This document shows positions 21,279 to 46,215 of a stretch of DNA of 64,000 nucleotides, in pieces; within the stretch, counting starts at the first letter, position 1, and each line of letters starts with the position of its first letter. Under the pieces are notes generated by a model. It was not told the origin of the DNA. It searched no databases and saw nothing but the letters and a program-made list of their open reading frames with translations. The stretch comes from Longitalea arenae (GTDB lineage Bacteria > Bacteroidota > Bacteroidia > Chitinophagales > Chitinophagaceae): positions 1-64,000 of the forward strand of contig NZ_JAFFJX010000026.1 of NCBI RefSeq assembly GCF_016924755.1, given 5' to 3'. A program made the position numbers and the translations under genes.

Positions 21279-22343
21279 CTATTTAAGGCCCAGTACTTTT
21301 AATGTATCCTCTTTGTCCTTCGCCAGTTGTTCTACCAATGCCTCAAGCCCATTGAACTTTACTTCAGGGCGCAGGTATTGTTTAACATACACCCGCAGCG
21401 ATTTGCCGTAAATATCTTCGTTGAAATCAAAGAGGTTTACTTCGATCACCCGGTCGGTGCCACCGATAGTGGGTCTTATGCCAATGCTCATCATGCCGGC
21501 AAGGAGGGTTAAAGTCTGAGGGGCAAAGTTTGAGGCCTGAAGTCCGAGGGCTGATGTCTTATCTCCGGTATTCTGACCTCCGGCCTCGGCCGTCTTCTGA
21601 GCTCCGCCTTCCGGCCTCTGACTTCCGTGTTCCGGTCTCCGGCTTCTGATCTCTGCCCTGACAGCATAAATGCCATTGCCCGGAATAAGTTTTTCCTCGT
21701 TCTCGATGTGCAGGTTAGCGGTAGGGTAACCCAGCGTGCGGCCCAGTTTATTGCCATCTACAACAGTGCCTTCGAAGAAGAAATCATAACCCAGCAGGGT
21801 GTTGGCCCTATCGATATTCCCCTGCAGAACAGCTTCCCGGATGCGGGTGGAGCTTACGGTATTATCATTGATCACATGGGCTGGAATTTCCATGAGGCGG
21901 AAGCCAAGCCGGTCGCTGTATGTTTCCAGTAATTTGTAGTCGCCTTCGCGGTTCTTGCCAAAACGGTGGTCGTAGCCGATAATAACGGTGTGCGGATGGA
22001 ACTTTTCAACCAGGAACTGTTCGATATAGGCCGACGGACTTTGCTGTGCAAAAACATCGGTAAAGGGAACAACCACCAGGTGATCGATGCCGTTCTTATC
22101 GAGCAGTTCAATTTTTTCGTCGATCGTATTGATCAGCTGGATGCCGGGCTGGCCGCTGACGATCACTTTGCGCGGGTGCGGATGGAAAGTGATTATGACC
22201 GTTTCGCCACCGATGCGTGCTGCTTCCCGCTTCAATTGCTCCAGGATGCTTTTGTGGCCGGTATGTACGCCATCGAATGTGCCGATCGTCACTACTGCCT
22301 TTTGAAAGGCCGGGATAGTATCTGTTGAAAAGTAAACTTTCAT
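21279..22343 (-). CDS. ribF: bifunctional riboflavin kinase / FAD synthetase, with an in-frame repeat insertion
   Basis: Makes FMN from riboflavin and FAD from FMN. N-terminal FAD synthetase domain: TIGTFDGVHTGH (HxGH motif) and SSTRIREAV. C-terminal riboflavin kinase domain: GTVVDGNKLGRTLGYPTANL, IGIRPTIGG and VNLFDFNEDIYGKSL. At 354 aa it is about 45 residues longer than usual. The excess is residues about 230-277, between the YAVRAEI strand and MMSIGIRPTIGG; this loop is low in complexity with a seven-residue period and is encoded by a heptamer DNA array (21515-21661). Catalytic motifs are intact, so it is probably functional. Start at 22343 (MKVYFSTD); an upstream TTG-like extension is less likely. 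Confidence 0.93.
   Translation of the reverse strand: MKVYFSTDTIPAFQKAVVTIGTFDGVHTGHKSILEQLKREAARIGGETVIITFHPHPRKVIVSGQPGIQLINTIDEKIELLDKNGIDHLVVVPFTDVFAQQSPSAYIEQFLVEKFHPHTVIIGYDHRFGKNREGDYKLLETYSDRLGFRLMEIPAHVINDNTVSSTRIREAVLQGNIDRANTLLGYDFFFEGTVVDGNKLGRTLGYPTANLHIENEEKLIPGNGIYAVRAEIRSRRPEHGSQRPEGGAQKTAEAGGQNTGDKTSALGLQASNFAPQTLTLLAGMMSIGIRPTIGGTDRVIEVNLFDFNEDIYGKSLRVYVKQYLRPEVKFNGLEALVEQLAKDKEDTLKVLGLK
21515..21661. repeat. heptamer array inside ribF, word CTCCGGC/TTCTGAC
   Basis: About 147 bp of degenerate 7-bp units (CTCCGGC, TTCTGAC, CTTCCGG, TCTCCGG and similar). 147 is 21 x 7 and 49 codons, so the reading frame is kept; translation gives a loose seven-residue repeat (RRPEHGS, QRPEGGA, QKTAEAG, GQNTGDK). 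Confidence 0.8.
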
Positions 22344-22377: not shown

Positions 22378-22460
22378 TGGGATTTCCGGATTTTGGATTT
22401 TGAGATCTCGGGATTTCAGAATTTGAGATTGAGCTGGTAAATCCTTAAATCCCTGAATCA
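22378..22460. repeat. GATTTTGA-type array upstream of ribF
   Basis: GATTTCCGGATTTTGGATTTTGAG-like units at 22378-22436 followed by AAATCCTTAAATCCC at 22440-22455: left and right arms of the GATTT/AAATC family seen at five other loci, here more degenerate. Confidence 0.6.
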
Positions 22461-22470
22461 GAAATCAGCA

Positions 22471-22730
22471 ATTTCCGCTGAAATGGGAGATTCCATGATT
22501 TACGCAAAAGTTGGGATTGGTGTAAATCTCGAAATCCCACAATCAGAAATCAGCTATTTCCGCTGAAATGGGCGATTCCATGATTTACGCAAAAATTGGA
22601 ATTGGTGTAAATCTCGAAATCCCAAAATCAGAAATCAGCAATTTCCGCTGAAATGGGAGATTCCATGATTTACGCAAAAATTGGGATTGGTGTAAATCTC
22701 GAAATCCCGCAATCAGAAATCAGAAATTTC
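22471..22730. repeat. three tandem copies of an 85-bp unit
   Basis: The marker ATTTCCGC occurs at 22471, 22556, 22641 and 22726, exactly 85 bp apart. Copies differ at only a few bases (for example GGGAGATT against GGGCGATT, AAAGTTGGGATT against AAATTGGAATT). Each unit has its own internal arms (GAAATGGGAGATTCC and AAATCTCGAAATCCC). The array fills the divergent region between ribF and purM and runs up to the purM -7 box. Confidence 0.9.
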
Positions 22731-22735
22731 CGCCT

Positions 22736-22779: not shown

Positions 22780-23943
22780 ATGAGTTTATATTCACAACGG
22801 GGTGTTTCTGCCCAGAAAGAGGAAGTTCACAAGGCAACGGAAAAACTGGATAAAGGGTTGTATCCCCATGCTTTCTGCAAGATCTATCCTGATTACCTTA
22901 CCGGCCACTCCGATTGGGTGAATGTAATGCATGCCGATGGCGCCGGCACCAAAAGCATCCTGGCTTATTTGTACTGGAAGGAAACCGGAGATCTTTCTGT
23001 TTGGAAAGGTATTGCCCAGGATGCCGTTGTGATGAATCTCGACGACCTGTTGTGTGTAGGCATCACTGACAACCTCTTATTTTCTTCAACCATCGACCGC
23101 AATAAAAAGCTCGTGACCGGCGAAGTGCTGGAAACAGTGATCAATGGAACACAGGAACTCTTCGATTCCCTGAAACAGTTCGGGGTGAATATCCATTACC
23201 TGGGCGGCGAAACAGCCGATGTAGGCGATGTAGTGCGCACCATTGCGGTGAATGGCACCATGACGGCCCGCTGGCCCAAAAACCGGCTGGTGACCAATGA
23301 AAAGATCCAGGCAGGCGATGTAATAGTGGGTTTCAGCAGCTTTGGACAAACCGTGTATGAAACGGAATACAACAGCGGTATTGGCAGCAACGGACTTACC
23401 AGCGCCCGCCACGATGTGTTAAGCAAGTTTTACGCAAAGGAATTTAAAGAATCATATGAGAACAGCCTGGCCGATGAAGTAGTGTATATCGGGCCCCATC
23501 GTTTGACAGATACAGTGGGCGCTGAAAAGCACCAGGTGGGTAAACTGCTCTTATCGCCCACGCGCACCTATGCTCCTTTATTGAACCTGTTCTTCGATAA
23601 TTATTTTGATGCCATTCATGGCCTCATTCATTGCAGTGGCGGCGGGCAAACCAAATGTATGAAATACCTCCCCGGCAATTTCCGCGTAGTGAAAGACAAC
23701 CTGTTCGAACCACCCATTATTTTCCAGCTCATTCAAAAAGCCTCCGGTTCCAATAACCGCGAAATGTACCAGGTGTTTAACATGGGCCACCGGCTTGAGT
23801 TATTTACCCATGCCTCTTCTGCACCCTTATTCATCGAGGCGGCTCAAAAGCTCGGCATTGAAGCGCAGATCGTAGGCCGCGTAGAAGCAAGTGATAAAAA
23901 AGAACTGATTTTGAAAGTAGACGGTGAAGAAATAGTTTATTGA
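22780..23943 (+). CDS. purM: phosphoribosylformylglycinamidine cyclo-ligase (AIR synthetase)
   Basis: Fifth step of purine synthesis: ATP-dependent ring closure of FGAM to AIR in the cytoplasm. 387 aa, slightly longer than the 345-aa E. coli enzyme. Family motifs: HADGAGTKS near residue 50, QDAVVMNLDDLLCVG, YLGGETADVGD, VGFSSFGQ, then IHGLIHCSGGGQTKCMKYL and FNMGHRLELF, where AIR synthetases have the MFNMGxG-type loop. The sequence is of the longer Bacteroidota type. Single gene, convergent with the DeoR-type gene downstream. Confidence 0.93.
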   Translation: MSLYSQRGVSAQKEEVHKATEKLDKGLYPHAFCKIYPDYLTGHSDWVNVMHADGAGTKSILAYLYWKETGDLSVWKGIAQDAVVMNLDDLLCVGITDNLLFSSTIDRNKKLVTGEVLETVINGTQELFDSLKQFGVNIHYLGGETADVGDVVRTIAVNGTMTARWPKNRLVTNEKIQAGDVIVGFSSFGQTVYETEYNSGIGSNGLTSARHDVLSKFYAKEFKESYENSLADEVVYIGPHRLTDTVGAEKHQVGKLLLSPTRTYAPLLNLFFDNYFDAIHGLIHCSGGGQTKCMKYLPGNFRVVKDNLFEPPIIFQLIQKASGSNNREMYQVFNMGHRLELFTHASSAPLFIEAAQKLGIEAQIVGRVEASDKKELILKVDGEEIVY

Positions 23944-43649: not shown

Positions 43650-44080
43650 TAACAGCAGGGCTACCTCAATAGCTACCACAGGGCTACGGCCTATCGAACA
43701 GTTAGCCACATGGTTACCGCACAGTTTTCCCAGGGCTATTTCACGGCCCACCTAAGCACTATCGAACTGCTATCCCAGAACTACCCAACGCTACCGGCTT
43801 ACCGCAGATTTACCCAATGCTACCGCGCGGCTACCTGAGGGCTACCGCAGGGCTACGGCCTACCGAACAGTTACGCACTTGCTACCGCACAGTTTTCCCA
43901 GGGCTATTCCACGGCCCATCTAAGCACTATTGAACTGCAATCCCAGAACTACCCAACGCTACCGGGCTAACGCAGATTTACCCACCGCTACCGCGCGGCT
44001 ACCTGAGGGCTGTCAGTTACCCGAGGACTACCGAACGGCAACTTAAAGCTACCCAAGTGCTACCTGGACTACCGCAGGAA
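43650..44080. repeat. 11-bp-period array with a 169-bp duplication
   Basis: Words such as CTACCGCGCGG, CTACCTGAGGG, CTACCGCAGGG and CTACGGCCTAC follow each other with a period of 11. The sequence from 43681 (GGGCTACGGCC) recurs at 43850 with about 90% identity over 169 bp. Two further copies of the short word trail off near 44030-44080. No ORF runs through with codon bias, so it is treated as non-coding. Confidence 0.8.
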
Positions 44081-45702: not shown

Positions 45703-45711
45703 TACAGCGTT

Positions 45712-46215
45712 GCCGGTTGCCGGTTACCGGTTACCAGTCGCCGGTTACCAGTTTCCGGTTACCGGTTACCAGTCGCCGGGTGTCAGTTACCAGTTACCGG
45801 TTGCAGTGTTATGGAGTTCCAGGTTTCAGGTTGCAAGTTACAGGGCGGTTTCCGGTTACCAGTTTCCGGTTACCGGTTACCAGTTTCCGAGTGCCAGTTA
45901 CCAGTCGCCAGTCGCCGGTTATCGGTTACCGGTTACCAGTTGCCGGTTACCAGTTGCCGGTTGCCGGTTACCAGTTACCAGTTACCGGTTACCAGTCGCC
46001 GGGTGTCAGTTACCAGTTACCGGTTGCAGTATTATGGAGTTCCAGGTTTCAGGTTGCAAGTTACAGGGCGGTTGCCGGTTACCAGTTTCCGGTTACCAGT
46101 TACCGGTTACCGGTTACCAGTCGCCGGTTACCAGTTTCCGGTTACCAGTTGCCGGTTACCAGTTGCCGGTTACCAGTTGCCGGTTGCCAGTTGCCGGTTG
46201 CCGGGTGGCAGTTGA
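45712..46215. repeat. 500-bp heptamer array, words GTTACCG, GTTACCA, GTTGCCG
   Basis: About seventy degenerate units with a period of 7, interrupted twice by the same 58-bp segment (…ATGGAGTTCCAGGTTTCAGG…, at about 45810 and 46031, 222 bp apart). All three forward frames are open and encode PVTGYQL-like heptapeptides, but these are translations of the array and not genes. Confidence 0.92.

Follow-up and report, generated by a model that had tools for sequence, protein, structure and literature searches.

RibF, the bifunctional riboflavin kinase/FAD synthetase of Longitalea arenae, carries in its kinase domain a loop encoded by a degenerate array of 7-bp units. Its gene, ribF (21279..22343, minus strand, 354 aa; assigned with Pfam and NCBIfam), lies in a 64,000-nt stretch of the genome that was analyzed as a whole and is referred to here as the window. 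Arrays of other 7-bp units occupy the same site in RibF of a number of relatives, and heptamer arrays also occur in the linker of MutL and at a single loop of PurM-like proteins. We consider it probable that a heptamer process acting on DNA, filtered by the tolerance of the proteins, has operated recurrently at the RibF hairpin, the PurM-like loop, and the MutL linker.

The array was first noticed in a preliminary description of the window, which reported degenerate 7-bp units in frame at 21515-21661. Within this segment, identity was 0.52 at a lag of 7 bp, 0.54 at 14, 0.49 at 21, and 0.41 at 28, and it did not exceed 0.33 at any other lag from 2 to 29. We sampled 1.244 Mb (17%) of the organism's own genome, and none of 5160 coding segments of 147 bp drawn from it reached the lag-7 identity of 0.52 (maximum 0.41). 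A codon-shuffle test on the RibF loop gave P=0.0005, the floor of the test. The in-frame array was thereby confirmed. It can be traced to about 21510 (21510..21661, minus strand; about residues 228-278), with soft limits, and the reading frame through it is open. Because the units are degenerate, Tandem Repeats Finder at default settings detected the array only in part (21596-21646, as a 21-mer), with more fragments at score 30. The degeneracy of the units and an assembly in 40 contigs might suggest chance low complexity or an assembly artefact; given the two tests above, and given that RibF of the separately assembled Longitalea luteola has a related array in the corresponding position, we regard this explanation as highly improbable.

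The preliminary description also took the length of the segment, 147 = 21 x 7 bp, as evidence. Any in-frame insertion is a multiple of three, so this argument carries no weight, and the lengths of array-bearing loops cover all residues modulo 7. The loop of the window's RibF exceeds that of L. luteola by 27 codons (81 bp, not a multiple of 7), which, together with the soft limits, means that 147 bp is not a measured insertion length. Growth in steps of exactly 21 bp was rejected as well, as loop lengths modulo 7 are spread, although this is a weak test because the base length also varies.

RibF matched the Pfam families FAD_syn and Flavokinase. It passed the NCBIfam equivalog model for riboflavin kinase/FAD synthetase, NF004160 (304.6 bits; cut-off 295), and TIGR00083 (242.1 bits; cut-off 184.35), and fell below the cut-offs of several sister NCBIfam models. 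It therefore has both domains and the equivalog match of a bifunctional bacterial RibF, and it is the single ribF match across the organism's genome (7.28 Mb). The PTAN motif (P207, T208, A209, and N210) and a conserved glutamate (E301), which we take to be catalytic, are kept despite the loop and form invariant columns in an alignment of 54 proteins. To this extent the catalytic motifs are intact, as had been claimed, their catalytic role being our assumption. The further claim that the repeat is tolerated in an essential enzyme holds for a core enzyme that is matched once in the genome; that the enzyme works with the loop is suggested by the single copy and the kept residues.

In an AlphaFold2 model of RibF (mean predicted local distance difference test score, pLDDT, 87.6; input alignment of 54 rows), the loop starts at the end of strand 224-233 of the flavokinase domain (21645..21674, minus strand) and stops at strand 281-292, which holds GMMSIGIRPT (21468..21503, minus strand; strands assigned by DSSP). 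Solved FAD synthetases align with the model over both domains, with template modeling scores by query of 0.76 (3op1) and 0.75 (2x0k). Residues 240-264, between the two strands, have a pLDDT below 50, and most remaining residues are confident; disorder of the repeat stretch is accordingly a prediction only. The model agrees with the earlier placement of the loop between two strands of the kinase domain. An alignment revealed a short additional stretch between the corresponding parts of the Corynebacterium FAD synthetase, indicating that this connection in the kinase domain varies more widely.

We then compared RibF loops across relatives, the nearest named ones being L. luteola and Niastella populi. 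Of 195 family genomes, 186 had a RibF, and named genomes contributed 80 loci; another 120 loci were then fetched. The loop could be read at 225 of 231 loci, yielding 214 distinct proteins, mostly from Chitinophagaceae, with one genome per species; the drawn family genomes supplied 139 of these and named genomes 75, including 17 from loci L093-L111, which by title are mostly outside the family. With 2000 codon shuffles and a threshold of P<=0.001, a 7-bp period was detected in 27 of 213 testable loops. No loop had a period of 4, 5, 6, 8, 9, 10, 11, 12, or 13 at this threshold, and period 14 was found in 24; at P<=0.01, two loops showed period 8. Among the drawn family genomes 20 of 139 loops carried arrays, and among L093-L111 one did (L095, a 'Chitinophagales bacterium'). 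Loop length ranged from 21 to 68 aa, and the share with arrays was 17/24 in loops of at least 41 aa, 4/17 in loops of 34-40 aa, and 6/173 in loops of at most 33 aa. Most relatives are thus short-looped and do not share one loop of conserved sequence.

The 27 arrays fall into 18 unit clusters, with words such as TTTCCAG (L008 and L019), ATCGGCA (L010 and L036), CTGTCAA (L124 and L125), GGCAAAT (L006), GTCAACA (L038), and AGGCAAT (L032). At a score of at least 12, the RibF loop core (10.7 kb) contained 29 arrays, compared with 3 in the remaining 196 kb of RibF, of which one is a run of N and another lies in an N-terminal extension of the open reading frame (ORF); other ORFs had 16 in 459 kb. Outside the family, in other families of the class, 34 loops were read from 40 loci fetched: 33 have 24 residues, and one carries an array. 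That lone array (L361, genome G268) lies in the longest of all RibF loops read, 75 aa by motif, and has period 7, purine-then-pyrimidine order, and inverted halves. The 62-aa loop of L005, which lacks a heptamer period (P=0.16), contains the palindrome TCCCGATAGCTATCGGGA, and L095 has the related ATAGCTATCGG.

In the sampled L. arenae genome, period-7 arrays are common in intergenic DNA, and few lie clearly inside a protein. At a score of at least 14, period-7 arrays numbered 80 between genes and 8 inside called genes, with 5 partial. At a score of at least 13, ten lay inside genes; seven of these fall in residues 1-21 of the ORF as called, a region in which the true start is uncertain, and the other three, in RibF, the MutL linker, and an ABC-type ATPase, are clearly within the protein. 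The statement that arrays outside ribF are strictly intergenic is therefore correct for the window (score of at least 13) and not for the genome. The own MutL gene (L268:16380-18320; C11:376380-378320) has its array at C11:377093-377130, in the linker between the N- and C-terminal domains, and L. luteola MutL has a similar one. In the ATPase (L286:7488-8233; C11:727488-728233) the array is read as IGNWQWAIGNV and lies within the ABC_tran match, past the nucleotide-binding GPNGSGKST stretch.

Similar to RibF, MutL and the PurM-like proteins each showed arrays at one site. With the MutL linker defined by position, from residue 335 to 185 residues before the end, 14 arrays were found in 12 of 69 genes, all within the 22 kb of linker. 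None occurred in 108 kb of non-linker MutL, and no other period among 4-13 was found in the linker. In PurM-like loops, period 7 was present in 16 of 127 (P<=0.001); period 14 aside, period 6 was found in one loop and no other period in any. Around ribF in relatives we found 16 arrays in ORFs other than ribF, and of 15 inspected, 13 were in PurM-like genes, one in MnmE, and one in TilS. All 13 directly precede LLLSPTRTYAP or close variants. The PurM-like assignment is by shared sequence, Pfam having been run for the window's own protein and that of L124 only; we use the name 'PurM-like' because the window's protein does not reach the purM model's cut-off. One isolated event confined to this ribF, as the preliminary description implied, would fit the observation that ribF is the sole gene of the window with an internal heptamer array; it is refuted by the 27 RibF loops and by the PurM-like and MutL arrays.

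A period of 7 bases rather than 7 codons, standing out against codon shuffles, indicates a process at work on DNA; selection on codons would not be expected to produce such a period, which supports the same conclusion. Arrays persist mostly at variable connections of proteins, so their survival is seemingly set by the protein. We propose that a DNA-level process produces tandem degenerate 7-bp arrays across the genome, mainly between genes. At the tip of the RibF beta-hairpin the protein would tolerate additional disordered residues, and arrays that are in frame and free of stops would survive there, then turn over and decay. This would have happened many times at the RibF site in the family, and also in one PurM-like loop and the MutL linker. 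Arrays may grow by slippage, and to some extent unit words may also be copied from one locus to another or, by fold-back, inside the same locus.

The number of origins was assessed on a FastTree tree of 210 RibF proteins, made with the loop excluded and rooted at the midpoint. The presence or absence of an array requires at least 20 changes of state, gains and losses not being told apart. Trees with shuffled labels required 25.8 +- 1.0 changes (minimum 22), above the 20 of the real labels. This difference favors one ancestral ribF array that was inherited, its units changing beyond recognition and with many losses, as does the full sharing of units in two of the five two-member array clades (L008/L019 and L124/L125). 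The other three hardly share units (L131/L158, 0; L012/L132, 0.12; L032/L033, 0.08 of 6-mers). In the six-tip clade of the window's species, arrays are present in L001, L003, L032, and L033 and absent from L004 and L034, and an older array there, with decay in two tips, is likely. By contrast, the most parsimonious reconstruction over the whole tree has an array-free root and 22 clades made up of array carriers only, on the midpoint root and with gain and loss indistinct. One ancestral array for the family is, in our judgment, quite improbable.

A further alternative is that the loop is selected, the hairpin extension having a job (partner contact, oligomer control, or regulation of the flavin kinase) for which the arrays are raw material. 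The at least 20 state changes are consistent with this idea, as are the lengths of 21-68 aa in 214 proteins against 24 aa in 33 of 34 from other families of the class. So is the polarity of the arrays: purine-rich units come first in 22 of 27 RibF arrays, compared with 40 of 100 non-array loops, and this polarity is absent from arrays between genes. However, lineages differ in the sequence of the loop, units are dissimilar in three of five sister pairs, the stretch is predicted to be unstructured, 173 of 214 loops are short (<=33 aa), and unrelated proteins also receive arrays. We consider a selected function unlikely.

Within a genome, unlinked genes have some of their unit words in common, which hints at copying, on mixed evidence. 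In permutations with RibF and PurM-like arrays taken at P<=0.01, RibF and MutL units were closer within than between genomes (P 0.006 for 5-mers and 0.019 for 6-mers, n=8); the corresponding values for RibF and PurM-like units were 0.054 and 0.0375 (n=7). These sets are small and include related species, and several pairs mismatch. RibF arrays and other arrays of the same locus gave P=0.003 (n=14), with 7 of 14 sharing nothing and much of the signal carried by the sister species L124/L125 and by L003. In genome G100, CTGTCAA is used in RibF, PurM-like, and MutL alike. Searches for perfect trimers in 30 genomes located ATCGGCA x3 at 10 places in G085, RibF included, from 11 matches of which two are separated by 42 bp. 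G150 had this trimer at 3 places, and the 28 other genomes, among them G162 of the same genus as G085, lacked it. CTGTCAA x3 was found at 3 places in G100 (RibF included) and was absent from the 29 other genomes, among them the sister G173; the reversed word is a rotation of this unit and does not serve as a control. Pasting from popular words, considered as an explanation, had mixed results, ATCGGCA and CTGTCAA being multi-locus and TTTCCAG and CAACATT contrary. No consensus element shared across loci, as in dispersed mobile repeats of the repetitive extragenic palindromic or miniature inverted-repeat transposable element type, was found in the 1.244 Mb or among the 18 unit clusters of the 27 arrays.

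Fold-back copying was considered from the arrangement of the units. In the window's ribF, purine-rich units precede pyrimidine-rich units on the ribF strand. The purine-rich arm (21571..21654, minus strand; GGAAGTC, AGAGGCC, and GGAAGGC, for example) and the pyrimidine-rich arm (21510..21549, minus strand; CCTCGGA, CTTCAGG, and CCTCAAA, for example) have limits set by eye, and the latter is a partial inverted copy of the former. The purine fraction is 0.73 in the 5' half of the loop, and the inverted match between halves gave P=0.007 against block shuffles. Inverted halves exceeded block shuffles (P<=0.01) in 6 of 21 long RibF loops, and a within/between permutation gave P=0.0004. The mirror control (0.03; complement, 0.11) and direct half matching were also significant, indicating that this signal is partly one of composition and array length. 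Folding of the window's array gave z -2.43 as DNA against dinucleotide shuffles, but -0.52 as RNA against codon shuffles. A hairpin as a general device was rejected, since fold energies relative to codon shuffles were inconsistent and intergenic arrays lack the polarity. Against the 1.244 Mb sample, the window's ribF array had only weak unit-level relatives (best E 7.6e-05; five intergenic matches with E <=0.14). A trans-acting writing of genome-specific heptamer words in Chitinophagaceae, in which templated locus-to-locus and fold-back copying would repeatedly rewrite the same RibF, PurM-like, and MutL loops until those of one genome share a word, as with CTGTCAA in G100, appears to us rather doubtful.

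Several observations weigh against a DNA-level process filtered by protein tolerance. At strict thresholds, no period-8 array was found in the RibF, PurM-like, or MutL loops. Between genes of the own genome, however, period 8 is almost as common as period 7 (63 vs 80 arrays at score 14 and 55 vs 66 at score 16). The absence of period 8 from these loops is not explained by plain tolerance. Gene calls of the own genome do include five period-8 arrays; four of them lie no further in than residue 13 of the called ORF, and the fifth is at residue 45 of a 370-residue ORF that scores weakly. Stop codons explain little of the difference and were rejected as the cause, since at least one frame is open in 60 of 74 period-8 and 87 of 93 period-7 arrays located outside genes. 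The purine-first polarity of RibF arrays may also point to selection on the protein, and together with the missing period 8 it may be a trace of such selection. That the protein tolerates the loop almost neutrally is something that we infer.

Other points of this kind come from the tree and from the unit words. The window's species and L. luteola, which have related units, are separated by array-free neighbors in their six-tip clade, and L010 and L036, both with ATCGGCA, are separated by L015 alone; some of the 22 all-array clades may therefore share an old array, and separate gains are possibly somewhat fewer than 20. As regards copying, the own MutL and RibF arrays are unlike each other. TTTCCAG x3 occurs in G112, an incomplete genome, solely in RibF, as if grown in place. 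CAACATT x3, near the word of two G024 genes, has no perfect trimer in G024 and is present in four other genomes.

Heptanucleotide simple sequence repeats are a known class in bacteria, for which slippage has been proposed, 7 nt being possibly the length of contact with the polymerase (survey work described in MacGregor 2015, PMC4679880). The arrays described here resemble them in having a 7-bp period beyond chance and no other basic period. They differ in being degenerate, with varied words that recur in the same core-enzyme loops across a family. Some of the TAACTGA repeats described in the same paper lie inside ORFs, judged successful mainly at the protein periphery, and their mobility was considered. 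There, one fixed word is placed mainly before start codons; here, many words fill internal loops at recurrent sites, and TAACTGA is not the word of the RibF arrays whose units are listed above. The amino-acid tandem repeats of Borgs (PMC9879509) have independent origins, evolve fast, and form disordered stretches; for the repeat-coded stretch of RibF, disorder is a prediction from low pLDDT. In Borgs, every unit inside an ORF has a length divisible by three, and many of the proteins are extracellular or bound to membranes, whereas the unit here is 7 bp and the enzymes would be expected to be cytosolic. Bacillus tandem repeats of constant size and variable sequence (PMC8161180) share the fixed period and variable sequence, with units of 20-21 or 52 nt instead of 7 bp. 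Among the top-ranked matches of the open-licence literature, we found no report of heptamer arrays in RibF or Chitinophagaceae, or of a recurrent core-enzyme site filled by unlike heptamers.

Other repeats were observed in the window. The PurM-like gene (22780-23943) is the divergent neighbor of ribF, and this own copy has no array, L124, L159, and L018 being among the carriers. Between the divergent starts of the two genes, at 22447-22733, lies a repeat with an 85-bp unit (3.4 copies, 93% matches). Higher-order repeats are present at 43672-44011 (168 bp, 2.0 copies) and at 45709-46199 (223 bp, 2.2 copies), the latter over a long heptamer array.

The RibF loop offers a countable natural experiment on repeat DNA becoming protein, with one loop, one core enzyme, and at least 20 state changes, and its signature is a fixed period whose unit is not a multiple of three. 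It allows a test of whether slippage in place or copying from locus to locus spreads the arrays, and of why proteins take up 7-bp units and not the almost equally common 8-bp ones. For annotation, long RibF loops in the family, and some stretches of PurM-like proteins and MutL, call for caution as repeat arrays rather than new domains. In Chitinophagaceae, one loop of RibF appears to be a site at which a DNA repeat process lands time and again.
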